Below are positions 27,680 through 44,234 of a stretch of 53,394 nt of DNA, one piece after another. This stretch comes from Verrucomicrobiota bacterium. GTDB lineage: Bacteria > Verrucomicrobiota > Verrucomicrobiia > Chthoniobacterales > Chthoniobacteraceae. A program made the position numbers and the translations under genes. Numbering within the stretch: position 1 is the first letter of the stretch; every line of letters starts with the position of its first letter. The notes beneath the pieces are model-generated. The model made no database searches. It was given only the letters and a program-made list of their open reading frames with translations, and was not told the DNA's origin. The stretch is taken from contig QQND01000008.1 of assembly GCA_003402745.1 (NCBI GenBank), forward strand, positions 1-53,394, in the 5' to 3' direction.

Positions 27680-30112
27680 TCACCGCCGTATGATGAGGTT
27701 GCCCAGCGCCTTCGGGTCTTTGAATTTTGTGCCGCTTGGGAAGAGCATGTAAAATTCGGGTGCGTTTCCGGCCATGCGCTGGCGGCAGATGTTTAGTCCC
27801 CAAGGGTAGGCTTTGCTGGGGACTTCACCTTCGATGGGCTTGGCTTCGATGAGAGCTTCGACGAACCAGCGGTCGGAGGCCTTTTTCACAGCGATGTTTT
27901 TCACGGTGTAAAAGCTGGAGAGGTCCTCGGAGCGCGTGGTGATGCATTCATCGAGCACGGTGCCGTTGGGATTGATGACAATGAAGGGGCGGATGCCCTT
28001 GGCTGTTTCGAGTCGGATCTCGACGGTGTCGTCATTGAAGATGGCGTAGCTATCGCGGTCTTTGCAGTCGGCGCGGAGTTTGTCCATTTTGGGCTCGATA
28101 CATTCGATGGCGACGACGAGAGCGCTATTGTCCGGCAGCCAACGGAATGCAACTTTCGTGGAGAGGTGGTGCGGTACCTCACCGGTGAATAGGTCGGTCA
28201 AGGGCGTGAAGACGCGGCCTTCGTCGGTCCAGAATGGCTTGGTGAAATCGCCATCGATTTTGGGCGGTTGATGCGCCCAGTAGCCGGCGATCCCGCCGTT
28301 ATTGCGTTGGAGGTTCGCAAAGAGTCCTTTCAGGGGCTGCATTTCAGCTTCAAGCAACGCGATGCGCTTCGTGTAAATGCTGTCGCCAGTTTTGGTCTTT
28401 GCAGCGGTGAGAAGTGTGAAGAATTGGTCGATGTCGGCTTGCTTGAGGAAGCCGCCATTGGCGGTGATTTCACGTGCTTCCGGCCGCGACCAAACGGCTT
28501 CGCCGAGTTCATGAAACTGCTTCATCACGGCGTGCGCGGGGCCGAAGAACACGCGGTAGTATTCGTCCAACGTGGCCTGCATATCGAGGTGGCGATCCCA
28601 CATCATGCGCGCGTGTAGGTAGAGCATGAGGTGTGACAAACCGGGGCGACGGAGGTTGTTGGTCGCGTCCGGTTTGGTTTCATTGCTTGGAATCCACGGT
28701 ACTTCAACATCGTAGCCGATGGCGTGGTCATAGGCGGCTTCGAGATTGGCCTGCATGCTTTTGGTGAAGAAGACGGGCATGGGCGGCGCGTGACGGATGT
28801 CGGCATGCTCCAAGTAGTGGTCCATGATGAGCAGTTGCTCGCTACCCTTCTTCATGCGCTTGAGCCACTCTTGGCGCAGCGCGAGATCGCCATTCCAGGG
28901 AGGCAGCATCCAGCCGGTGCTGTGCTGCATGAGGCCGACGAGAACGCTGTCGGGGATTTTTTCAATGGTGGTCGGCGGCATCGTGGTGCCGCTGTAGGCC
29001 ATGACGGAGAACTTGCGTTCAGGGAGCTTGGCACTGATGCGCTTGATGATGTCGAGGTTAAAGTCCCAGGCGTAGTTGCTGAAGTTGCCGTAGATGCCGC
29101 GCTCGGTCTGCTCCCAGCCTGCGGTGACGTCGGCGCTGTCGATGGAGGACCAGCCATCTGGTTGCCCGAGGCAGTCGTATTCTATGCCGGGATAGACTTG
29201 GCGCGTAAAGTCGAGCGAGGTGATGAAATCGGCTCGCAACTTTTCGCTGTTAAGTTTGGGTGAGTTATAGTTGGGCTTGCCATTGATGATCCCGAAGTAA
29301 GCGGGATCAGCTTCTTTGCCAAAGTAGGTGAGGCGGCCCACGGCATGGTAGATCGGGATGACCTTGCTGGTACCAAGGCCCATGGATTTGTACCACATCA
29401 GCTCCTGTCTGTAGGTGCCAGACTGGTTGTTGGCGAAGATGCGCTGCCCGAACTCCGGCTCCTTCTTTCGGGACTGCTCGGCGATGCTGATGCTATCGTG
29501 GTGGGGGCGGATCAGCCCGAGCTCTTCATCCGGCATATACCAGCGCATGCCGAGCTGCTCCAGCAAGCCAAACACGGCATACAGCGTGCCTGTCGCATCA
29601 TACAAATAGAAGCCGCACGCCTTGTTGAAGCCGCCCCCGCCATAGAATGCAGGCATGCGCCACTTATGACCGGTTAACTTTTCCCAAGTAGTTTGCGAGA
29701 GGTCATGCGCGCGGTCAGTGTATGGGGCGAAGTGGTTCTGAGAGTGAAACACATCCCGTCCGAGGAGCACAACGTGGTGGTCCTTCGCGATGATCTTGTA
29801 GCCATCGAGCTTTACGTCTTCGACGTTGATGCCAAGTTTCTGCGTGTGCTCGCTCGCGCCGACATAGATGTGATTGGACGCCTCGCCTGGTTTGTCCACG
29901 ATTTCGAGGGTTGCGCCTGACATCGCAAGCAAATGGCGCTGAAGTTCCTCAGCAGCGGTGCGCGTGGCCTTGATTGAATCAGCAGCAATGACGATATCTG
30001 CGACAGGCTTGCCGTTGGTGACAAGATCGACGGCTGGAGCTGGCAGCGAGACGAGGATGCTGATCGCCGTCATCAGGGAAGTGCGAAGAGAGGGAGGACA
30101 GGAGGCATGCAT
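27680..30112 (-). CDS. DUF4838 domain protein with C-terminal CBM9-like domain (copy b)
   Basis: 810 residues from the ATG preceded by GAGGAA; the frame continues upstream into the TPR gene. Signal peptide (SLMTAISILVSLPAPA). The N-terminal domain VDLVTNGKPVADIVIAADS..AAEELQRHLLAMSGATLEIVD resembles the GH67/GH20 accessory fold. The DUF4838 core follows with CLGQPDGWSSID and YSGTTMPP. The last 170 residues, DGDFTKPFWTDEGRVFTPLTDLFTGE to the C-terminus, are CBM9/DOMON-like. Distantly related in layout to alpha-glucuronidases; catalytic residues cannot be assigned. Probably exported and glycan-directed. Starts 25 bases downstream of the TPR gene. Confidence 0.88.
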   Translation of the reverse strand: MHASCPPSLRTSLMTAISILVSLPAPAVDLVTNGKPVADIVIAADSIKATRTAAEELQRHLLAMSGATLEIVDKPGEASNHIYVGASEHTQKLGINVEDVKLDGYKIIAKDHHVVLLGRDVFHSQNHFAPYTDRAHDLSQTTWEKLTGHKWRMPAFYGGGGFNKACGFYLYDATGTLYAVFGLLEQLGMRWYMPDEELGLIRPHHDSISIAEQSRKKEPEFGQRIFANNQSGTYRQELMWYKSMGLGTSKVIPIYHAVGRLTYFGKEADPAYFGIINGKPNYNSPKLNSEKLRADFITSLDFTRQVYPGIEYDCLGQPDGWSSIDSADVTAGWEQTERGIYGNFSNYAWDFNLDIIKRISAKLPERKFSVMAYSGTTMPPTTIEKIPDSVLVGLMQHSTGWMLPPWNGDLALRQEWLKRMKKGSEQLLIMDHYLEHADIRHAPPMPVFFTKSMQANLEAAYDHAIGYDVEVPWIPSNETKPDATNNLRRPGLSHLMLYLHARMMWDRHLDMQATLDEYYRVFFGPAHAVMKQFHELGEAVWSRPEAREITANGGFLKQADIDQFFTLLTAAKTKTGDSIYTKRIALLEAEMQPLKGLFANLQRNNGGIAGYWAHQPPKIDGDFTKPFWTDEGRVFTPLTDLFTGEVPHHLSTKVAFRWLPDNSALVVAIECIEPKMDKLRADCKDRDSYAIFNDDTVEIRLETAKGIRPFIVINPNGTVLDECITTRSEDLSSFYTVKNIAVKKASDRWFVEALIEAKPIEGEVPSKAYPWGLNICRQRMAGNAPEFYMLFPSGTKFKDPKALGNLIIRR

Positions 30113-30137
30113 AAAGAGGTTCCTCGGTGAGAAAGGC

Positions 30138-30974
30138 TCAGCGTTTCGTTTCCAACTTGGCCTTCGCCGTTGCGAGCAGGTCCGGAGGCGGATTTTTCGA
30201 TGCGACGACAGCCTCATAACATGACTTCGCCTTGTCCGGTTCACCCAGAGTTTCGTGAGTTGCCGCAAGGGCCATTTGAACCATGGTCCAGTGCGGTTGT
30301 TTGGTGAGCTCGTTGATCCGCTCAAACTCCCCGATGGCGAGCTCACCCTTGCCGTTCAGTGCGAGAATACGCGCCCGAGCGGCGATGGCTTGATAACGCA
30401 TCGTGGGACCGGGTTCCTTGAGTTTCATCACCTCCTCGAGGTCGTCCAGCGCCTGCGGTCCTTCGAGCAGCCATGCCAAACGCAGGTGCGCAGTGGCCTT
30501 CTTGTAATCATTGAGAGTGTGACCCAGCGCCGCACGGAAATCCTTCTCTGCCGACACCACGTCACGCGCGCGGCCCGATGCATCGCCACGGACCATCAGC
30601 GCATCGAAGATGAGTGCATCCGGCCAAAGCGACAAATCCTCGTTTTTGACCAGCGCCAAGATTTCCGCATACTTCGACTGCAGCACCAGTATTTTCATGC
30701 GGCAGAGCGTGCCCAGGTGTTTGTCTGTGATACCTGCAGCAAGCGTCGTCGCCTGTTCGGGATGCTTTAATTGCGCCTCACAGTAACTGGCCTGCATTAA
30801 GGCTAAATCCTTCGTCTGTGCGTTGGGAGCCGATGCGATCAGCGCGTTAAACGCCACACTGGCCTCAGGAATCTTGTTGGAGACGTAGAGCTGCAGGGCG
30901 GCTTGATACTCCGTTGGGAAAGTCGCAGCGTAGCCGGTAGCAGCGGAAATAAAAAGGAAGAGGAGGTTTTTCAT
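30138..30974 (-). CDS. Exported TPR-like protein
   Basis: 278 residues with a signal peptide (MKNLLFLFISAATGYA) followed by helical pairs spaced like tetratricopeptide repeats: YQAALQLYVSNKIPEASVAFNAL, ALMQASYCEAQLKHPEQATTLA, IAARARILALNGKGELAIGEFERI, MVQMALAATHETLGEPDKAKSCYE. Likely a periplasmic scaffold or complex partner for the DUF4838 proteins on either side. Spacing: 79 bases from copy a upstream, 25 to copy b downstream. Confidence 0.82.
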   Translation of the reverse strand: MKNLLFLFISAATGYAATFPTEYQAALQLYVSNKIPEASVAFNALIASAPNAQTKDLALMQASYCEAQLKHPEQATTLAAGITDKHLGTLCRMKILVLQSKYAEILALVKNEDLSLWPDALIFDALMVRGDASGRARDVVSAEKDFRAALGHTLNDYKKATAHLRLAWLLEGPQALDDLEEVMKLKEPGPTMRYQAIAARARILALNGKGELAIGEFERINELTKQPHWTMVQMALAATHETLGEPDKAKSCYEAVVASKNPPPDLLATAKAKLETKR

Positions 30975-31053: not shown

Positions 31054-33501
31054 CTAGCGTTTGTTCGTCGTGATGTTTCCCATCATCTCGAAGTTTTTGT
31101 TGAAAGCCTTGCCTGTCGGTGAGAGTTGGTAGAACTCGGGCTTGTCTCCGGCGAGGCGCTGGTGCGAGATCTGGACGCCCCACGGCGCCGAGACATTGGG
31201 GATAAGCGCCGCGAGGGAAGCGTAATCAATCCGGATCTCTGTGCACCACTTGTCCGGGTGTTTTTTGACGGCATAGTCGCTTACGCTATAGAAGGCCGCC
31301 AAGTTGGCCACGTTCGGGTCAGTCGTGTCCTGGTCGAAGATGGCGCCCGCCGGGTTGATGTTGATGACAGGCATGCGTCCGTTCGGAGTTTCCAGACGGA
31401 TTTCCACAAAATCATCAGCCCATATGCTCGAATCGTCGCGTGTCTTGGTGCGTTCACGAATGCCGTCCATTTTTGGCTCGCGGCACTCGATGGCGAGGTA
31501 AAGGGCGGTCGGTGTGGCGCGGAACGCGACGGTGGTGGAGAGATGGGCCGGTTTGGCTCCGGTAAACATGTCCTTCAGCGCAGTCACTGGCACGCCCTTC
31601 CAGAACGCTTTGGAAAAATCGCCGTCGCACTTAATATTTTCGGCGATGCGTCCGGCTTGGATGGTCGGACCTTTGCGATTGAGGTTGGCGAACAGCTTTT
31701 TGAGAGACTCCATCTCGCTTGCGAGGCAATCGAGCCTCTTCGCGTAGATGCTGCCGGATTCAGCTTTTGCGCGGGCTTTTTCGAGGAGGTCGAAGATTTT
31801 GGTCACGTCATCCTCCTTGAAGTTACCGGAGGATGCCGTTACGCGGCGCGGCGCTTTTCTCATCCATATTTCCTCGCCGAATTTATCCAGTGCCTTCATC
31901 TCCTCGGCAGCGGGCCCGTAGTAGAGCGCGTAGTATTCGGCTAACAGCTTGTCCACATCGACTTTTGGATCCCACATCAGCTTCGAGTAGAGATACATCA
32001 TGAGATGCGTCTGCGCAGGGCCCCCGATGTTGGTGTTGTGGTTTTGGGCTTTTGTAACGTCGCCAAAGGGAGCGTCGTATTCGAGAAGGAAGCCCTGGCA
32101 TTTGGCAGGCGTGAGGTTTTTGAAGAGCTGCTTCAGGTTTTCCGTAAAGATATACGGGGTCGGCGGATAGTTGCGGTGAGGACCGCGGTCGTAGAGATAG
32201 TCGTAATAGATAAACTGTTCCGGCTCTTTGACACACTCGAACCACTCTTTCATGATGCCCGTAAACTGGGGGTTCAGATGGTCATAAGCTGTTGTATTTG
32301 TGAAAACACAGGTCATGTCATCCGGGATGGACTTGCCTCTAAGCTGTGAGGGAACGGCTCCCGTGCCGGAATAAGCGTAGAAGGCTTTGCGTTGCTTGTT
32401 GCCTGGATACTTATTGTTATAGCGCTCGAGCATGTTCGCATTAAAATCCCATGCGTAGTCGCTGTAGCGACCTTCATCGCCGCGCTCTTTCAGTTTGTCC
32501 CAGCCCTTGGCGACATCCTCGTCGTCGATTGTGCTCCAGCCGTCCGGTTGGTTGAAGCTGACATACGGGAGCAACTTTGGGTAAAAGGTGTTGGCGGATT
32601 CGAGATACTGAAGGAAGGTTGAGCGGAATTTTTCGCCCGAGAGCTTCGGTGCGCGGAAATCAGTCTTGCCGTTTATCTTTCCGGCACACTCGGGGTCTTC
32701 GTTGCCGTCGAGGATACGCCCAGCGGCATGATAAAAGAAGATGAACTCGCTCATCCCGCCGCCAAGCGACTTGAACCACATGGACTCATCACGACCGCCG
32801 CGCCAGTGGGCCCAGTTTCGGTAGCGGAAGGCCGGTTCGCTCTTGATATTCTGTTCGGCAAGGGAAACGTCCTTCTTTTCTGGGATCACCTGCCCGATGT
32901 CGGCGAAGGGCATATACCAGCGGAACCCGAGTTGTTCGAGCAGCGCGTAGGCGGCGAATAGGGTGCCGGTGGAATCAATACCATCGTGAAAGCCAAGGGT
33001 GCGCGACGGATCCCTTTCGCGGCACTGGTTGTAGAGGCCTTCCATGAACATCGGCGAGCGCCATTTATGCCCGCCGGTGTGCTTCAGCCATTTGTCTCCG
33101 ACCCTGTAGAGGTTGTCCTCGCTCAGTCCGTAGTATTTATACCATTCGATATCGACTCCTGCTGCGATGACATCGTCGCCTTTTACGAGGATTTTGTAGC
33201 CGTCGTATTTGACTTCTTTAAGGTCCAACCCGATTTTCTTGGTCAGCTCGTTTTCTCCGAACCAGACCTTCGTTTTCACCTTGCCGGTGGGTTCGTTTAC
33301 GATGTCGAGTTTGGCGCCCGACATCTTGGAGATGATATCGTGAAATTCCGTTGCGGCCGCCTTCACAATTGGGTTGGCATCCTTAGGGATGATGATTTCG
33401 GCTGTCGCCTTGCCGTCTTTCACGAGCGGCGCCGCGGAAAGGGGCAAGGAGATGCCGAAGGTGAGTAGGAGGATGTTGAGGAGTGTGGCGATGTCTTTCA
33501 T
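31054..33501 (-). CDS. DUF4838 domain protein with C-terminal CBM9-like domain (copy a)
   Basis: 815 residues from the ATG at 33501 (another in-frame ATG is 30 bases upstream, overlapping the SGNH gene). Signal peptide ending LPLSAAP. Same architecture as copy b: N-terminal domain with KAAATEFHDIISKMSGAKLDIV, DUF4838 core with SFNQPDGWSTID and AYSGTGAVPS, and C-terminal CBM9-like domain from IKCDGDFSKAFWKGVPVT. The two are clear paralogues placed on either side of the TPR gene. Exported; acts probably on a polysaccharide or its fragments; reaction unknown. Confidence 0.9.
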   Translation of the reverse strand: MKDIATLLNILLLTFGISLPLSAAPLVKDGKATAEIIIPKDANPIVKAAATEFHDIISKMSGAKLDIVNEPTGKVKTKVWFGENELTKKIGLDLKEVKYDGYKILVKGDDVIAAGVDIEWYKYYGLSEDNLYRVGDKWLKHTGGHKWRSPMFMEGLYNQCRERDPSRTLGFHDGIDSTGTLFAAYALLEQLGFRWYMPFADIGQVIPEKKDVSLAEQNIKSEPAFRYRNWAHWRGGRDESMWFKSLGGGMSEFIFFYHAAGRILDGNEDPECAGKINGKTDFRAPKLSGEKFRSTFLQYLESANTFYPKLLPYVSFNQPDGWSTIDDEDVAKGWDKLKERGDEGRYSDYAWDFNANMLERYNNKYPGNKQRKAFYAYSGTGAVPSQLRGKSIPDDMTCVFTNTTAYDHLNPQFTGIMKEWFECVKEPEQFIYYDYLYDRGPHRNYPPTPYIFTENLKQLFKNLTPAKCQGFLLEYDAPFGDVTKAQNHNTNIGGPAQTHLMMYLYSKLMWDPKVDVDKLLAEYYALYYGPAAEEMKALDKFGEEIWMRKAPRRVTASSGNFKEDDVTKIFDLLEKARAKAESGSIYAKRLDCLASEMESLKKLFANLNRKGPTIQAGRIAENIKCDGDFSKAFWKGVPVTALKDMFTGAKPAHLSTTVAFRATPTALYLAIECREPKMDGIRERTKTRDDSSIWADDFVEIRLETPNGRMPVININPAGAIFDQDTTDPNVANLAAFYSVSDYAVKKHPDKWCTEIRIDYASLAALIPNVSAPWGVQISHQRLAGDKPEFYQLSPTGKAFNKNFEMMGNITTNKR

Positions 33502-33517
33502 GGGGGTGTCTTCGCGA

Positions 33518-34843
33518 TCAGTGCCGTTCATTCAGTAGTGTCTCAAGTGTGGGCTGCATTGCTTCCAGCCAACGGATATAGCCGGGGCCGGCGACGTGGA
33601 GTTTATCGGGCATCACTGTTGGGCTGATGGTGCCATCGGGCTCGACGAGTTTGTCGCCGACGTCGAGGTAAAAGACGTGCTTTTGGTCGGACAGCGCGGC
33701 GATTTTGGCGTTGGTCTGGCGGATGGATGCGTTGATTTCGTCTTTGGTCGAGACTCCGCGAGGCAGAATGCCAAGGAGCAGGATTTTGCTCTGCGCTGTC
33801 TTTGTCTGGATTGCCTGAATCAGCCCGCCAATATTCGCTGCGATCTCTTCTGGAGTGCACTTGCCAGTGAGGTTGTTGGTGCCGATGAGCATCACAATGA
33901 CCTTCGGTGCGGCCTTGTCGAGGGTGCCGTTTTGCACACGCCAGAGGACGTTTTGAATCCAGTCCCCGCCGATGCCGAGATTGCTGGGACGATGTTTACC
34001 AAACCGCGCCTCGAGAACGTCCTGCGGCCAGCGTGCGGTGATGGAGTCGCCTAGGAAGACTAGCTCCGGGCGGGTCGCGAGGACGGCTTCGCACTGGGCT
34101 TTATGCTTTTCAGCATACGCTACGCCGATGCGCCCATTCAAACCAAACTGCGGCGTGGAGGCGCCTAGTGCTGGGGAGATGATGTTGACAGGCGCCTCTG
34201 GCATTTGCCCGGTTGGGCAGTCTTCGATGACATAGAGGAGTCGGCCACCACCCTTCCGTGCGCCTGTGGTTGGACCGAGCGCGACATGGATGACATCACC
34301 TTTTTTCAAGTGGCCGAGGTTTAATTGAAAGACCTCGGCGAACCGCCGTTCATTTTTGATCAGCCACTGAGCCTTCTGCTCGTCATTCACAAAAATTCTT
34401 AGGTCCGTGCCTTCGTTAAAGGGGGTGCGCAGGTTGCCGTGGTTGATCCAGATATCGCCGCCCGGGGCCTCGAGGAGTTTGTAGGATGCTATGTAATGGC
34501 GCGCCACGCCGCCGGTATCGAGCTTGGTGGAGATATCGAGATAACCGATGCCCTGCGAGATGGCGTGGCTGGGCGCGTCGGAGCGGAGCTTACCCGAGGC
34601 GTCCTTAACACCATAAGCACTATCCTTCGCGTTGTAGTGCAGGGGCTCATAGTTTGCAGCCGTGCCGAGCGCACCGTGAGCATTCCATTGGAAGCTCCAA
34701 CCTGAAGGCGGAACCGGCTCCTTGGCGGCATCCGCAAAAACGGCGACGAGCGTTGATGCGCTGTCAACGCTTGCGTTGACAGGCACGGTTTGGGCCTGCA
34801 CCAGCAACGGCATCAAGAGCAGCGCTAACATGATTTGCATCAT
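33518..34843 (-). CDS. SGNH/GDSL hydrolase with N-terminal beta domain, secreted
   Basis: 441 residues, signal peptide MMQIMLALLLMPLLVQAQ. The first 230 residues are a beta-rich domain (WSFQWNAHGALGT, GGDIWINHGNLRTP), the rest a PAF-acetylhydrolase-like SGNH domain: block I FLGDSIT (nucleophile Ser), block II GIGGD, block III IGTNN, block V DKLHVAGPGY with catalytic Asp and His. Probably a carbohydrate esterase (deacetylase) serving the DUF4838 proteins. First gene of the four-gene operon; its stop lies 16 bases before the next start. Confidence 0.9.
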   Translation of the reverse strand: MMQIMLALLLMPLLVQAQTVPVNASVDSASTLVAVFADAAKEPVPPSGWSFQWNAHGALGTAANYEPLHYNAKDSAYGVKDASGKLRSDAPSHAISQGIGYLDISTKLDTGGVARHYIASYKLLEAPGGDIWINHGNLRTPFNEGTDLRIFVNDEQKAQWLIKNERRFAEVFQLNLGHLKKGDVIHVALGPTTGARKGGGRLLYVIEDCPTGQMPEAPVNIISPALGASTPQFGLNGRIGVAYAEKHKAQCEAVLATRPELVFLGDSITARWPQDVLEARFGKHRPSNLGIGGDWIQNVLWRVQNGTLDKAAPKVIVMLIGTNNLTGKCTPEEIAANIGGLIQAIQTKTAQSKILLLGILPRGVSTKDEINASIRQTNAKIAALSDQKHVFYLDVGDKLVEPDGTISPTVMPDKLHVAGPGYIRWLEAMQPTLETLLNERH

Positions 34844-35137: not shown

Positions 35138-36139
35138 TTACCGGGGCGGCTTTCGGTGCACCCGCCAGACTCCCTCCTGCCGGCAGGGGGTGGTGTGGCC
35201 TGTGCCGAGTTGTAGACCGAAGCGAAGAAGGGTTTCAGCCAGCCTTTTTGGGGTGTAGCGGAGGCTGAAAAAGAGCTGCAGCAAGTCCCCGGCGCGTGCT
35301 GCAAAAGGTTCGTTTTCCCAATCAAAACGGGCGTTGGAAAGCCATGGGCACTGGAGGCAGAATCCGAGGATGTTGTCGAACGACTGGAGGTGGAATCGGG
35401 GTTGTCCCAAATGAGCTTTGATGCCCCAGTCCACCAGAACTTGCCCGAGCCAGAGGAGGGTTTCTGGGTTGTTGTACTGGGGTAAAATGGCGTCGCAGGC
35501 GGCGAGGTAGGCGGCTTCGGTTTCCGCTGAAGCGTCGAGGGGGGCTAGGTTTGCGCTCAGGAGCAGGGCGTCCTCCTCGCGCATGAGACTGGAGAGCCGT
35601 TTGAAAAGGGTGCTGGGAAGGAAGTTGGGGCTTAGACCAAACGCGGTGTAGACGCGGGTTTCGTGGGAGGGATAACGCTCTAGCCATGCGGGCAGTTCTT
35701 CAAGCAGTGCGAGGTCTGCCACGACGGGGAGGATTTCTGTTTCAAGGAGGGATTCGGCGGTTTCGGCAGAAAGAAGGGCCAGTTCCACACTGGCGTCTAC
35801 GGGGGTGTAGCGGGTCCTGCACCCCGCGGCTTTGAGGGCCTGCAGAAGCCAAGCCTCTTTTTCACCGCCGCCTGGCCCCAATGCGACGACGTGGACGTCC
35901 TGGCTGGCGAGTTCCTCAGCGGTCTGGTGGGAAATGCTGCGGAAGATGTCCTCAAAGGAGCGGTCGGTGGAACCGGGGGCGTGGCGGCGGTGGACGTCCA
36001 TCCAGAGTTGCGCCTGTTTTGGGCCTTGGTAGTGGAAGACGTGGTCGATGGCGCCCTGAGAAAGTGACGCTTGCCGGCGCAGGCTTTGGTGCTGTGCGCG
36101 CAGGGAGGAATGGACCCAAACGGGACGTAGGGGAGTCAT
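35138..36139 (-). CDS. EgtD-like (PF10017) SAM-dependent methyltransferase
   Basis: 333 residues. The histidine-specific methyltransferase family, known from EgtD of ergothioneine synthesis: SAM motif HVVALGPGGGEKEAWLLQAL, then RTRYTPVDASVELALLS, and an acidic strand EDALLLSANLAP; NNPETLLWL matches the C-terminal part. Family members N-methylate alpha-amino groups; whether this one acts on histidine is unknown, and no EgtB-like gene is near. Start ATG overlaps the SDR stop codon in ATGA (36136-36139), so translation is coupled. Third and last gene of the pterin-like operon. Confidence 0.8.
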   Translation of the reverse strand: MTPLRPVWVHSSLRAQHQSLRRQASLSQGAIDHVFHYQGPKQAQLWMDVHRRHAPGSTDRSFEDIFRSISHQTAEELASQDVHVVALGPGGGEKEAWLLQALKAAGCRTRYTPVDASVELALLSAETAESLLETEILPVVADLALLEELPAWLERYPSHETRVYTAFGLSPNFLPSTLFKRLSSLMREEDALLLSANLAPLDASAETEAAYLAACDAILPQYNNPETLLWLGQVLVDWGIKAHLGQPRFHLQSFDNILGFCLQCPWLSNARFDWENEPFAARAGDLLQLFFSLRYTPKRLAETLLRFGLQLGTGHTTPCRQEGVWRVHRKPPR

Positions 36140-36882
36140 CGCAGGTTCCAGCCTCCGCTCACGACCAGGTTGGAGCCGCTTAGGTAAACGGGGGCTTCCC
36201 GGGACAGAAAGCGGACGACTTGCAGGACATCCTGGAACGCACCGAGTCGCCCAGCGGGGACTTCCTCTAGGGGAAGATGCCCGACGCTGTTTTCGAGGAA
36301 GCCGGGGGATACCATGTTTACGGCGATGCCATGGGTTGCTTCGCTGACGGCGAAGGAACGGGTGAGGATCCAGACTCCTGTTTTCCCGATGTGATAGCTC
36401 CAGGCCAAGTCGCGTGCGCCCGGGCGCTCCGCGCTGGAGTCCCCGAGGTTGATGATGCGTTTTAATCCGCCTGCGCGCAGGAGGGGAAGCAGGGCGCGTG
36501 TGGTGAAGAAGGTTTGTGAGGCGGTGGAGTTGAGCCCCTCAAACCATTCGGTTTCGGAGAGGGCGAGTCCGTGTCGTTCTTGGTAGGCGCCGGCGTTGTT
36601 GACCAAAACGTCCAGCCGGCCGAAGCGCGTTTCCAGCGCGGCCGCCAAGGAGAGAGCCGCGGCGTCTGAGGTAAGGTCTGCTTGAAAGAGTTCGGCCGAG
36701 CCGCCTTTGGAACGAATTTCGGCCTGGATTTTGAGTGCTGCTTGCTGGTTGGTGCGGTAGTGGAGGGCGAGCGCAAAGCCGTCTTGTGCGAGGCCGAGGG
36801 CTAGAGCCTGGCCCAGTCCTGAGCCGGCGCCCGTGACCAGGGCAACGGGGGGTGTTGCGTGATGGGCTTCTTGAGTTTTCAT
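36136..36882 (-). CDS. SDR oxidoreductase, pteridine reductase (FolM/PTR1)-like
   Basis: 248 residues. Classical SDR: TGAGSGLGQALA (nucleotide site), VLVNNAG, catalytic SYHIGK (Tyr and Lys). In place of the usual Ser in the catalytic strand it reads RIINLGDSSAERPG, an Asp-containing version like that of FolM and PTR1 pteridine reductases, and the cofactor loop LHYRTNQ has the Arg expected for NADPH. Assigning pteridine reduction is inference from these features and from the DHPS-like partner. Overlaps both neighbours by four bases (ATGA). Confidence 0.85.
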   Translation of the reverse strand: MKTQEAHHATPPVALVTGAGSGLGQALALGLAQDGFALALHYRTNQQAALKIQAEIRSKGGSAELFQADLTSDAAALSLAAALETRFGRLDVLVNNAGAYQERHGLALSETEWFEGLNSTASQTFFTTRALLPLLRAGGLKRIINLGDSSAERPGARDLAWSYHIGKTGVWILTRSFAVSEATHGIAVNMVSPGFLENSVGHLPLEEVPAGRLGAFQDVLQVVRFLSREAPVYLSGSNLVVSGGWNLR

Positions 36883-37772
36883 GCAAAGGCGTTCATGGCG
36901 CGGATGACGCCGCGCACCTTAGCGACCTCGTGGGTGCGTAGAAGGTCGGTTTTTCCCAAGAGGGCGAGGACTCCGAAAAAGGGCTCTGCGGAGCGTACTT
37001 CTTCCTCGAAGTATTCGAAGGCGTGTGGCAGGGCCTGGCACACCGGCCAACCCAGAGACCGCAGTCGGAACGTGTTGAGGAAGGTTTCGATCTGGTAACG
37101 CACACGAACGGCGCTGTCGGCTAGGTTCTTGTAGTAAAAGCCAAGGCCCGGATCGATCCAGATCCGGCTGACGCCGCAGCGGACGGCGCGTTCGGTTTCG
37201 CGGGCGAAATACTCGTAGAGGGCGGCTGTGTGGTCAGGGAGGAGGTTGAAGTCGCCGACGGTTCGGACGTTTTTCCCGTTTTGAATGTAACAGATCACGA
37301 CTCCCGCCTGGTGGGCAGCGGCGAGGGTATAGAAGGGCTCGGTGTCTTCGGCGGCCGTCAAATTGACGAGGGCAGCCCCTGCTTCGAGGCTGACCCGGGT
37401 GACTTCCGGGTGGTAGCTTTCCACGGAGACGAGGAGTCCCGCGGAGTTGAGTTCTTGGACGACCGGGAGCAGGTGGGAGGACTGGGTTTTCGCATCCACC
37501 CGCTTGGCGCTCAGGACGGTGGATTCGGCTCCAAGGTCGATGATCCGAGCGCCATCCTCGGCGAGGCGTCTGCCTCTGCGCACTGCGGCATCGACGCTCA
37601 TGGCCACGCTTTCGCGGTACCAGGAGTCCTGGGAGAGGTTCACGACGCCCATCATCGCGACTTCCGGCCAATGTTGGAAGGACTGGCCCCGGAGTTCAAA
37701 CGGGGTCGGGGCGGCGGAGAGATGTTGGGAGTGGGTGCGGGCGAGTTCCGAGAGGTGATTGAGGTCGAGCAT
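36879..37772 (-). CDS. Dihydropteroate synthase-like (pterin-binding) protein
   Basis: 297 residues. Pterin-binding TIM barrel of the FolP type: MGVVNLSQDSW (cf. NxTPDSF), IIDLGAEST (cf. DIGGEST), VSVESYHPEVTR, LVNLTAAED, WIDPGLGFYYKN (cf. DPGFGFGK) and C-terminal LLRTHEVAKVRG (cf. RVHDV). The pyrophosphate and pterin sites therefore look kept. The loop where DHPS has its SRK motif for p-aminobenzoate reads VCQALPHAFEYFEEE, so pABA binding is probably lost. Hence not a normal FolP. First gene of the operon with SDR and EgtD-like genes. Confidence 0.85.
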   Translation of the reverse strand: MLDLNHLSELARTHSQHLSAAPTPFELRGQSFQHWPEVAMMGVVNLSQDSWYRESVAMSVDAAVRRGRRLAEDGARIIDLGAESTVLSAKRVDAKTQSSHLLPVVQELNSAGLLVSVESYHPEVTRVSLEAGAALVNLTAAEDTEPFYTLAAAHQAGVVICYIQNGKNVRTVGDFNLLPDHTAALYEYFARETERAVRCGVSRIWIDPGLGFYYKNLADSAVRVRYQIETFLNTFRLRSLGWPVCQALPHAFEYFEEEVRSAEPFFGVLALLGKTDLLRTHEVAKVRGVIRAMNAFA

Positions 37773-41451: not shown

Positions 41452-44124
41452 TCATTCAAACAGCAGTTCACCAAACACGCTCCGGTCGTCCATGGAATGG
41501 CTCGAAGCGGAGGATGACCAGATCGAGTCGTCCTGTTTGCCGCGCGCCACCAAGTGGTGGCGGGCAAAGTTGGCAAGCCACCGGGTTCCCGGCGCCGGCC
41601 GCGGAGTCTCGAGGGTCTGGAAGGGAATGCTCAGCAGGGAACGCCAGACGCGAGTGGTTTTTTCGAAGCGCGTTTCTACGCGGTAATCGCCGTTCCAAGA
41701 GGGGTCGTCTTTGCTGTGACGTGGGTCCATCAAATCGGTAATCGCACCGTTGAGTGCGTCGTATTTGGCGTCGGGACCGGGACCGGTCATGAAGCGGTAG
41801 AGGCGGTCCTTGGAAGGGGCAGGCTGAAGATAGAGGTCGAACGACTCCTCTTTCAAAAGGGGCGTGTCCCTTTTGAGCGCCTTGAACGGCTCGGTTGCAG
41901 AGGGTTCCAGCTCGGCCTCCGACAGCACGTACAAATGGGTGCTGTCGTAGAGCAGGCGCAGCTTGGTGGTCCGGGGCAAACCGTTGAGCGGGAGGATGGC
42001 GGTTAGCAACTCCGGTTCGACGGTGTTCCAGAGGGGAGAGTCCGGCGTGAGGCTTTCAGCGGAGCGTTTAACATGGGTGCTTCTCCTCCCTGCCATCGGA
42101 GCGGAGCGCATCACCTTGGTGTCCCAATTCAGGCAGGTGTGGGAGTAGGGTTCCTGATACCCGTCGCGAGCCAAGCGCAGGTGCGCGGCGTTGTGGCCCG
42201 GAAACGGGTAGAGCGTGTGTCCCCAATCGGCGCTGGGGAGTGCGCTGTTTTGTTTGTCGTAGAGCGCTGTAATAAATGCGTTCCGCGCGTCGATGGCGTC
42301 CAGAAGTCGATCCCTTGAAGGGATGTCCGGCTGGGTCTGGAAGGCTTGGTACAGATGCACCACGCGGGCGAGGAGGCGTATATATTCAAATTCGAGTTCA
42401 ACGAGGGCCAGGCGAGTTTTGACCTTTGGGGTGGAGGCGAGTTTCCGGGCTTCTGTGAGGTCGGAGGAGAGGCTGTCCAGAAGGTTCGGCGGGTACAAAA
42501 AGGCGAGAAGGCGGAAGGGGTCCTGTACGGTTTTGAAAGCATTTCCTTCATAGGAGGGGCTGCGCCATACATCGCAGCGCGTGCCGATTTGGTCGGAATA
42601 CAGGGCGATGGAATGGTAGAGCGAGCGATAAAAAGACTTCATCGCGGGCGCGGCTTTTCCGAAGGCCGCATCACAGAACTCCGGCACCAGTTCGGAGGCC
42701 TTCAAGCGCTGGGGGTCGTCCAACATACGCCCCATCACGTAGTAAACGGGCCCTTCGAGGCCGAAGAGCTGGCCGGGGCCGTCCCTGAAGATGCCCTGTA
42801 CCTTGTTGGCCACGAGACGCCTGACTTGTGTTTCTACAAAGCTCGGAGTGCGCATGGGGGTGTAGCGCGAGCCGAGGTTCGGGCACCAGTTGTAGATGTA
42901 GCCGGTAAACCCCCTGGGCACCGTGTGGCCACGCCAAGGCTGGAAGTCCTCCTCGTTTGTGCCCGTGAGCATGACGCAGGTGTTGGCCGGAAAACCCGTG
43001 AATGTTTTCGGCGGCACGGCTGTCAAAATGTAGGACATCATCGTGACCTGCCCCTGTGGATGGGACGCTAGCAATCGCTCGGCAACCTGCCGGTTGAAAA
43101 TCCAGATCTTTTCGCCCCAGTCCTTCCCCGTCCCAAAAAGGTTCGCGCAGTTTTGGCACTGGCACTCCCGAAATCCGTCGGGTTGGCCGAGGTCGACTGA
43201 GGAAAAGCCTTGGTCAAGCGAGGAGGCGAGATCCCGGTAAATGAGTTCCTGCACCTCCGGGTTAGAAAGGCAGTACTGCGCATTGCCATCGTCTGGCTTC
43301 TGGCGGGAACCGCTCAGCAGGGCGAAGTATTCCGGATGGGTGGCGTAGTGTTGCTCCGGAGGAATGGCCCGCTGCCAGGTGTGGCCGCCGAACAGCTCGT
43401 CGACCCTTGGAAAGCGGTTGTGGGCCAGGTCGTAAAAGCTTCCTCCGGCGGGATGGGCGGTGTTGACGCGCAGGGTGGGGACCTTGCGCACGTTGAGCGC
43501 GTCGGGGACAACGATCGTTTTGAGAGGCAGAAATTCGATGGCAGGTGACTTGAGAAAATCGATTTTGGCCGCGCCTGCGACAGGGGTGTAGCCGGGGAGT
43601 TCTGGATACAAAAACCGGACTCCTAAAAACTCACGGGCAAAGTCCGCCATGGCTTTCGCTGTACCGACACGATCCCAGCCCGAAAAACGTTTTTTGTCAG
43701 CCTGGGCTTTTGAGGGGGCGTCGTTGCCGGCGATGATGAGGTCGCGCCCAGCGGCTTGGAAAAGATAGGTCCAGTCGGGGAGGTCGGCGGTGGAAACGCC
43801 GTGTTCCTTGGCAAAAACCGTCGCGCCGAGGTAGAGTGCAGGTTTTCCGGGCTTTTTCGCTGATTCTGTGACGATATCAACGTCCGCTCCGTTTGCGGCA
43901 AAAGCAGCCTGAGCCAGACGGGCAGTCTGTGTGAGGCAATTGGTGAGTTCAGGGCTAGGGAGCTGGTCAGGAAGGACGATCTGGTACTCGGACTTGCCGT
44001 CAGAAAGCAGCACAAGTTCCGCCCTGGCGGCGCTGCCTAGGCAGAGCGCGGCGGCCATTGGACGGAGGCTTCGGCGCCAGAAGCATGTTTTTGTGGGAGG
44101 CGTGGAGAGGGGGGCGGCAGGCAT
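41452..44124 (-). CDS. DUF4838 domain protein with CBM9-like C-terminus (copy c)
   Basis: 890 residues from the ATG at 44124; upstream codons in the frame do not fit. Signal region near residues 10-44 (RRSLRPMAAALCLGSAARAE). Shares DUF4838 features with copies a and b but is divergent: DLGQPDGFRECQCQNC in place of QPDGWS.ID, and MMSYILTAVPP. The C-terminal 200 residues (SPLWNTVEPELLTAILPLNG to SVFGELLFE) form a CBM9-like sandwich. Four Cys near CQCQNC suggest a metal or disulfide site not seen in the others. Divergently transcribed from the M14 peptidase with palindromes in between. Confidence 0.85.
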   Translation of the reverse strand: MPAAPLSTPPTKTCFWRRSLRPMAAALCLGSAARAELVLLSDGKSEYQIVLPDQLPSPELTNCLTQTARLAQAAFAANGADVDIVTESAKKPGKPALYLGATVFAKEHGVSTADLPDWTYLFQAAGRDLIIAGNDAPSKAQADKKRFSGWDRVGTAKAMADFAREFLGVRFLYPELPGYTPVAGAAKIDFLKSPAIEFLPLKTIVVPDALNVRKVPTLRVNTAHPAGGSFYDLAHNRFPRVDELFGGHTWQRAIPPEQHYATHPEYFALLSGSRQKPDDGNAQYCLSNPEVQELIYRDLASSLDQGFSSVDLGQPDGFRECQCQNCANLFGTGKDWGEKIWIFNRQVAERLLASHPQGQVTMMSYILTAVPPKTFTGFPANTCVMLTGTNEEDFQPWRGHTVPRGFTGYIYNWCPNLGSRYTPMRTPSFVETQVRRLVANKVQGIFRDGPGQLFGLEGPVYYVMGRMLDDPQRLKASELVPEFCDAAFGKAAPAMKSFYRSLYHSIALYSDQIGTRCDVWRSPSYEGNAFKTVQDPFRLLAFLYPPNLLDSLSSDLTEARKLASTPKVKTRLALVELEFEYIRLLARVVHLYQAFQTQPDIPSRDRLLDAIDARNAFITALYDKQNSALPSADWGHTLYPFPGHNAAHLRLARDGYQEPYSHTCLNWDTKVMRSAPMAGRRSTHVKRSAESLTPDSPLWNTVEPELLTAILPLNGLPRTTKLRLLYDSTHLYVLSEAELEPSATEPFKALKRDTPLLKEESFDLYLQPAPSKDRLYRFMTGPGPDAKYDALNGAITDLMDPRHSKDDPSWNGDYRVETRFEKTTRVWRSLLSIPFQTLETPRPAPGTRWLANFARHHLVARGKQDDSIWSSSASSHSMDDRSVFGELLFE

Positions 44125-44234
44125 GGTTTTTGAAAACGTTGGGGATGACACAAGGCGAGAGTGCGACGTTGTTTGTGCAGGCTTATGTGTAAAATGTTGC
44201 AGCGCAATTATATTGCAGTGCATACTGCGCCGGT
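44125..44234. promoter_or_regulatory. Divergent regulatory region with palindromes
   Basis: Between DUF4838 copy c and the M14 gene. GCAAT-TAT-ATTGC (44204-44216) is a perfect inverted repeat, and TGCATAC (44219-44225) and GTATGCA (44233-44239) form another with a seven-base spacer that reaches into the M14 start codon. A weak -35/-10 pair for the plus strand is TTGTTT (44169) and TAAAAT (44190), spacing 15. Suggests a regulator binding over both promoters. Confidence 0.45.

Follow-up and report, generated by a model that had tools for sequence, protein, structure and literature searches.

The window analysed here, 53,394 nucleotides of contig QQND01000008.1 from a Verrucomicrobiota bacterium (assembly GCA_003402745.1), carries a three-gene operon encoding a dihydropteroate synthase (DHPS)-like protein, here termed DHPSL, a short-chain dehydrogenase/reductase (SDR) and an EgtD-like methyltransferase, here termed EGTDL. 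DHPSL and EGTDL are distinct subfamilies that co-occur and are co-inherited, and together they probably build an undescribed small molecule, with the SDR as an accessory, optional member of the set. Judged from its sequence, each enzyme forms a new subfamily within a family already known, while the pathway formed by the set matches, to our knowledge, no known one. Literature searches aimed at this gene set, confined to open-licence PMC papers, brought up no title or abstract that describes it.

A preliminary description of the same DNA had proposed that the operon makes or uses a methylated pterin or a pterin-amino-acid conjugate, with an acceptor other than para-aminobenzoic acid (pABA). This interpretation is borne out in part: a separate folP, the loss of the pABA site and the co-inheritance of DHPSL and EGTDL speak for it, while the role given to the SDR is not supported in that form and the methylated pterin is less favoured than an amino-acid betaine. 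Genomes, fetched loci and families are labelled G, L and f, respectively, and all genomes sampled lie in one phylum.

Distribution and Linkage of the Two Subfamilies

When the EGTDL of the window was used as query, 12 of 387 genomes of the phylum gave matches at E ≤ 0.001, nine of them EGTDL at E ≤ 1.1e-20. The other three comprise two true-EgtD loci (G166 and G013, called from a profile scan of L031 and from the clustering of L030 with L031) and one match, G303, assigned to neither subfamily. A DHPSL profile matched 353 of the 387 genomes, with nine exceeding 350 bits and the next standing at 102.6 bits, within the ordinary FolP range. These nine, drawn from four families, are the identical nine that carry EGTDL; at the level of families (4 of 81) such agreement would arise by chance about once in 1.7 million, a figure which assumes independence and is a guide only.

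The class sample of 374 genomes gave the same picture, with DHPSL in 127 (E ≤ 1e-60) and EGTDL in 96 (E ≤ 1e-12). Of these genomes, 91 have both, 36 DHPSL alone, 5 EGTDL alone and 242 neither (Fisher p 3e-50, a value that ignores shared descent). Eleven of the 91, namely the nine of the phylum sample with G507 and G521 (identified as the genomes of L036 and L035 from their contig numbers and coordinates), had supplied rows to the profiles, and without them the counts are 80 with both, 36 with DHPSL only and 5 with EGTDL only. Counted by family, DHPSL occurs in 41, EGTDL in 32 and both in 30. The window's own genus is patchy, G507 and G521 carrying both genes and G634 (89 % complete) neither, and plasmid records held no EGTDL match at E ≤ 1e-5. 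The co-occurrence of homologues that the preliminary description had looked to is thereby found for these two of its three genes. A second DHPS-type protein in so many genomes of the class, on top of the canonical FolP present in each of the 12 searched for it, implies a metabolite that the annotation “dihydropteroate synthase” would mask.

DHPSL and EGTDL are either unlinked or close neighbours. Among 27 same-contig pairs, chosen by eye as a subset of the 91 double-positive genomes, at most 300 bp separates the two genes in 21, from 8 families and often in convergent orientation, and the SDR gene alone lies between them in 3 more. In f10 the two stand ~10–34 kb apart, with the SDR adjoining EGTDL in six genomes, and each pair among DHPSL, SDR and EGTDL is linked somewhere. 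The trio operon itself recurs beyond chance, the same genes in identical order being present on three further contigs of metagenome-assembled genomes (MAGs; L035 and L036 from Chthoniobacteraceae, L037 from a Verrucomicrobia MAG), with identities of 73–87 % for DHPSL, 69–79 % for the SDR and 55–73 % for EGTDL. The overlapping gene junctions first described were confirmed in the window, the three open reading frames (ORFs) lying on the minus strand with 4-base overlaps at 36879–36882 and 36136–36139.

The DHPS-like Protein

The DHPSL of the window matches Pfam Pterin_bind at 107.7 bits and the DHPS family TIGR01496 at 119.7 bits, under the cut-off of 162.6. A canonical FolP, scoring 265 bits across the whole profile, is encoded elsewhere in the same genome. 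Canonical FolP was found in all 14 genomes searched (246–296 bits), 12 of which carry DHPSL; in these 12, the window's genome included, the full-profile FolP scores 246–289 bits and DHPSL is a separate match of 96–125 bits. That DHPSL might be the only DHPS of its genome, a finding which the preliminary description had said would overturn its proposal, is therefore rejected.

Residue conservation was followed in an alignment of 90 distinct DHPSL sequences from the fetched loci with 14 canonical FolP sequences. Six residues, N45, D79, N137, D207, R279 and H281, are kept in 90/90 DHPSL and are common to 14/14 FolP; the positions of N45, R279 and H281 we take to be the diphosphate site of DHPS. 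Glu118 is likewise universal in DHPSL, opposite an Asp in every FolP which is presumably Asp96 in E. coli numbering. The SRK motif of 14/14 FolP is replaced at DHPSL positions 249–251 by Pro-His/Cys-Ala (His in 89 and Cys in 1 of the 90), the loop-2 Arg of 14/14 FolP, part of an Arg-Pro pair, by Leu, Val or Ile in 90/90, and the loop-1 TPDSF by SxxSW. The SRK motif and the loop-2 Arg belong to the pABA site of DHPS; DHPSL keeps its diphosphate-site residues and has lost the pABA-site Arg and SRK. The absence of a pABA motif reported earlier thus extends to all 90 sequences, and the motifs then quoted, VCQALPHAFEYF in DHPSL and INLGDSS in the SDR, are both present in the translations.

The predicted fold agrees with the family assignment. 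The model (predicted local distance difference test, pLDDT, 81.3) aligns with 6day_D at template modelling (TM) scores of 0.75/0.81, and the 50 matches listed are all DHPS or Sul enzymes (TM 0.69–0.75 by query length). DHPSL therefore resembles FolP (TIGR01496, PF00809) in barrel fold and in the six shared residues but differs in its score below the equivalog cut-off, its replaced motifs and its coexistence with the canonical enzyme. The DHPS-like condensing enzymes of tetrahydromethanopterin synthesis offer a precedent, in that they carry out a reaction of the DHPS type on a different arylamine. MfnF of methanofuran synthesis was also considered as a DHPS-like precedent and was dropped, the part of the source consulted calling it a ligating enzyme and being silent on DHPS (PMC8141765).

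A weak third Pterin_bind protein occurs in two genomes (G000:C28:34190-34858, which is L034 9191-9859, and G387:C18:4447-5133); at 37 and 53.5 bits, these proteins score like neither FolP nor DHPSL.

The EgtD-like Methyltransferase

EGTDL of the window reaches 34.8 bits against Methyltransf_33 (cut-off 23) and 27.2 bits against the EgtD family TIGR03438, whose cut-off is 290.9. Its model (pLDDT 90.2) has EgtD structures as its best 15 fold matches, with TM scores of 0.70–0.75 by query length. For alignment with 2 true EgtD sequences, 29 distinct EGTDL sequences were used, comprising those from fetched loci with at least 120 bits and at least 280 residues together with three rows of profile A3. 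Phe290 is found in 29/29 at the position occupied in both true EgtD sequences by Glu282, which we take to face the histidine side chain; the same pairing is obtained in alignment with M. smegmatis EgtD. On the score and this substitution EGTDL was rejected as an EgtD.

The residues which hold the amino acid backbone are retained. N172 (29/29), Y222 (29/29) and S292 (28/29) stand opposite Asn166, Tyr206 and Ser284 of EgtD. Opposite Tyr56 the residue varies (Y 14, H 9, F 2, C 2, L 2). The Tyr206 assignment is less sure than those of Asn and Ser because a separate profile alignment pairs Tyr206 with Y211 instead, a Tyr in just 20/29. In M. tuberculosis EgtD, Tyr206, Ser284 and Tyr56 bind the carboxylate, whereas Asn166 binds the alpha-amine (PMC8593015). 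EGTDL shares with EgtD its fold and the Asn, Tyr and Ser residues at the amine and carboxylate, and differs from it in a far lower family score and in the Phe that replaces Glu282; the kept residues point to an amino acid substrate that is converted to a betaine, rather than to the methylated pterin first suggested. One of the fold matches, 4pip, is by its title a tryptophan complex of EgtD in which Val replaces Met252 and Ala replaces Glu282, which by analogy fits a non-histidine substrate once Glu282 is lost.

It had also been held that unlinked homologues, with the EgtD-like protein sitting beside egtB, would refute a shared pathway. The genes are indeed often unlinked, whereas an egtB neighbour was seen only at the loci L030/L031 of true EgtD, a different subfamily, though no egtB search was aimed at the surroundings of EGTDL; the profile scan of L031 gives EgtB at 573 bits and EgtD at 386.7 bits, marking a true EgtD locus.

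The Accessory SDR

The best NCBIfam match of the SDR in the window is TmpR (NF012208) at 220.7 bits, under the cut-off of 325, and TmpR is also the best family of five further orthologues scanned, all six lying at 180–231 bits. Asp-Tyr-Lys is the catalytic set of the FolM/PTR1 pteridine reductases, and D148, Y163 and K167 are kept in 15/15 aligned orthologues. The same 15 carry Gly at the Arg position of TGX3RXG, giving TGxxxGxG, where TGX3RXG is the reported FolM/PTR1 motif (PMC1971073). The SDR thus resembles TmpR, FolM and PTR1 in best family and catalytic set but departs from them in score and in this motif. Orthologues exceed 277 bits in 8 of the 387 phylum genomes, with the next match at 173 bits. 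In the class sample the SDR follows DHPSL in 8/78 fetched loci (L205, L210, L213, L254, L256, L259, L261 and L280), adding four families, and it does so in L074 too. As a fixed FolM-like member of the operon, the SDR does not hold up, being often missing, lacking TGX3RXG and falling below the cut-off of its best family.

In L210 (2530-3271) the reading frame of the SDR after DHPSL is broken in two, through gene decay or faulty assembly.

A Betaine-Type Importer in Some Lineages

Directly upstream of DHPSL and on the same strand, 4/86 loci (L074, L207, L208 and L245) encode an OpuAC-type binding protein or a permease/binding-protein fusion, and in L037 such an importer follows the trio. The families concerned are f19, f105 (L207 and L208, of one genus) and f88, with one further genome. 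OpuAC domain and permease are fused in three loci and split in L245, and in L207 the permease lies past the contig end. The five binding domains, the L031 protein and A. fulgidus ProX share Y63, Y111, Y214, E145 and R149 (ProX numbering), and the ProX Tyr190 position is Phe in all five. In EgtU, a cage of three Tyr and one Phe surrounds trimethylammonium, with Arg379 holding the carboxylate (PMC9732360); the matching of this cage and of Arg379 to the ProX positions is ours, and would make these importers betaine-type. They thus resemble ProX and EgtU in domain, permease and kept Tyr, Glu and Arg positions but differ from ProX at Tyr190. An importer match was absent from the window's genome, which is 68.8 % complete.

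Proposed Pathway and Alternatives

From the identities, linkage, co-occurrence, residue changes and importer adjacency described above, we infer substrates, an order of steps and a product as follows. EGTDL, with S-adenosylmethionine, would methylate the alpha-amine of a non-histidine amino acid, probably an aromatic or bulky one, to a betaine. DHPSL would form a DHPS-type bond between this amino acid, either as such or already methylated, and a heterocycle activated as its methyl-pyrophosphate. The simplest donor would be 6-hydroxymethyl-dihydropterin pyrophosphate from the folate pathway, given that DHPSL retains the barrel, N137 and D207 and that pteridine reductases are the nearest relatives of the linked SDR. 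Where present, the SDR would reduce the dihydropterin part, and in some lineages the betaine-type ATP-binding cassette importer may bring in either the product or the amino-acid betaine from which it is made. That DHPSL and EGTDL, with the optional SDR, form the core of a pathway not yet described, in which a betaine is joined to a pterin-like group, is put forward tentatively, at somewhat less than even confidence. The more specific product, a new cofactor or antioxidant in which the methylene carbon of a tetrahydropterin is bonded to an amino-acid betaine, perhaps at the amine or the hydroxyl group of an aromatic residue with a trimethylated alpha-nitrogen, is rather doubtful. If true, the conjugate would serve many Verrucomicrobiota as a carrier of redox equivalents or one-carbon units, like folate, or as a protectant, like ergothioneine; they would make it themselves, and some would also take it up through the betaine-type importers. 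Cofactors or protectants of this class would be new, and they would show a change of acceptor in DHPS, a drug target; even otherwise, the clear residue signatures make two enzyme subfamilies open to test.

Several observations weigh against this pathway. It does not account for the 36 of 127 DHPSL genomes without EGTDL: in 25 of them Methyltransf_33 is unmatched at E ≤ 0.01, and the other 11 have a weak match, 3 of these above the cut-off and none EGTDL by profile. G555, a single contig, carries DHPSL and neither EGTDL nor the SDR. Five genomes carry EGTDL only, among them G621 at 98 % completeness. Comparison by eye of the neighbours of 25 DHPSL loci without EGTDL revealed no shared substitute gene. 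The SDR is missing from G295, which has both other genes, and an orthologue had no match in 10 of 11 DHPSL genomes that were selected for having none beside DHPSL; the eleventh, G436, encodes one elsewhere at 297 bits, and the other ten peak at 127–143 bits, the level of general SDRs. Few of the loci have a gene for FolB, RibE or an importer nearby. Two pterin-site positions, by alignment Asp to Glu and Lys to Ala, are altered in every aligned DHPSL, and the donor may therefore not be a pterin. Finally, the DHPSL model is weakest at 49–56, 84–90 and 256–259, and the pocket is not readable from it because the altered loops 1 and 2 fall within these segments.

The pterin-site changes lead to the alternative that survives best, though still an unlikely one, in which DHPSL and EGTDL share a pathway without a pterin, another activated hydroxymethyl heterocycle yielding a betaine conjugate with a non-pterin head. 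The change to Glu and the loss of the SRK Lys in 90/90 DHPSL favour it, as does the optional SDR. The nearest annotated neighbours in the window include no folate gene, and to that extent the earlier statement that none accompanies the operon holds, DHPSL being the sole PF00809 match within the window. Against it stand the retention of N137, D207 and the barrel, and a linked SDR closest to the pteridine/dihydrofolate reductase family.

An accessory role in folate synthesis, with DHPSL as an alternative DHPS, the SDR as an alternative dihydrofolate reductase and EGTDL as a passenger, is improbable. FolA (PF00186) was unmatched in 10 of 14 genomes, including all six of f10 that carry the SDR (G008, G042, G054, G072, G152 and G265, each 99 % complete), and TmpR is the best family of the SDR. 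The f10 SDR adjoins riboflavin synthase in L023, and clustering indicates the same for L024, L025 and L028. In its genome report, M. infernorum is described as missing FolA, with FolP suggested to take over (PMC2474590). The TmpR-like SDR of f10 is a candidate dihydrofolate reductase, alternative to that suggestion, and would replace FolA in M. infernorum only if f10, as we surmise, is the family of that organism. As the missing dihydrofolate reductase of the whole group the SDR was rejected, FolA being present in G295, G322, G387 and G388; three of these four DHPSL genomes also carry the SDR. The full canonical FolP beside DHPSL in 12/12 genomes, the loss of the pABA-site Arg and SRK, and the wide tracking of DHPSL by EGTDL likewise argue against an accessory folate role.

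It is very unlikely that DHPSL is non-catalytic, serving in pterin or one-carbon binding or in regulation, with its link to EGTDL reflecting gene order or a shared regulator: the 36 genomes without EGTDL and the recurring neighbours described below, which indicate gene order conserved around both genes, would suit this, but N45, R279 and H281 are invariant in 90/90, the pair is variously arranged in many families, and co-occurrence persists even at 10–34 kb. Equally improbable is methylation by EGTDL of a pterin amine or other ring nitrogen. The replaced Glu282 and the company of DHPSL and of an SDR resembling pteridine reductases would allow it, but against it stand the EgtD amine and carboxylate residues kept in 28–29 of 29 sequences and the neighbouring importers with a betaine-type site.

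Genomic Context

The coordinates of the operon and of its main codons are collected in Table 1.

Table 1. Genes of the operon and codons of diagnostic residues in the window.
Feature	Positions	Strand	Basis or remark
DHPSL (DHPS-like protein), 297 aa, first gene	36879..37772	minus	ORF, Pfam Pterin_bind, predicted fold
SDR oxidoreductase, TmpR/pteridine-reductase-like, 248 aa, second gene, accessory	36136..36882	minus	ORF, NCBIfam NF012208
EGTDL (EgtD-like methyltransferase), 333 aa, third gene	35138..36139	minus	ORF, Methyltransf_33, predicted fold
DHPSL Glu118 codon	37419..37421	minus	opposite invariant FolP Asp
DHPSL Ala247-Leu-Pro-His250 codons	37023..37034	minus	region of FolP SRK motif
SDR Asp148 codon (Asp148-Tyr163-Lys167)	36439..36441	minus	set kept in 15/15 aligned SDR orthologues
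EGTDL Phe290 codon	35270..35272	minus	opposite EgtD Glu282

The window annotation places pssA-like and psd-like genes 5' of the trio, on its strand, and a GDSL hydrolase 3' of it; psd and pssA precede the trio in L035 and L036 too. A FolB gene lies ~4 kb from EGTDL in L022; together with the riboflavin synthase adjoining the SDR in L023, it gives the set a pterin-like context that favours the proposed pathway. In 16 loci, spread over 10 families, a cluster of SCO1 and DUF420 genes stands within a few genes of DHPSL or EGTDL (L249, L251, L253, L267, L268, L275 and ten others, with Pfam names taken from L249 only), and a UVR-motif protein and an epimerase also recur (named after the Pfam matches of one or two representatives). 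These neighbours look like conserved gene order, without a functional lead.

Elsewhere in the window, a tmRNA match at 1-147 on the minus strand is truncated by the window start, and ARAGORN lists none. Three DUF4838 proteins (27680-30346, 31054-33531 and 41452-44223), two of them separated by one ORF, are possibly paralogues.

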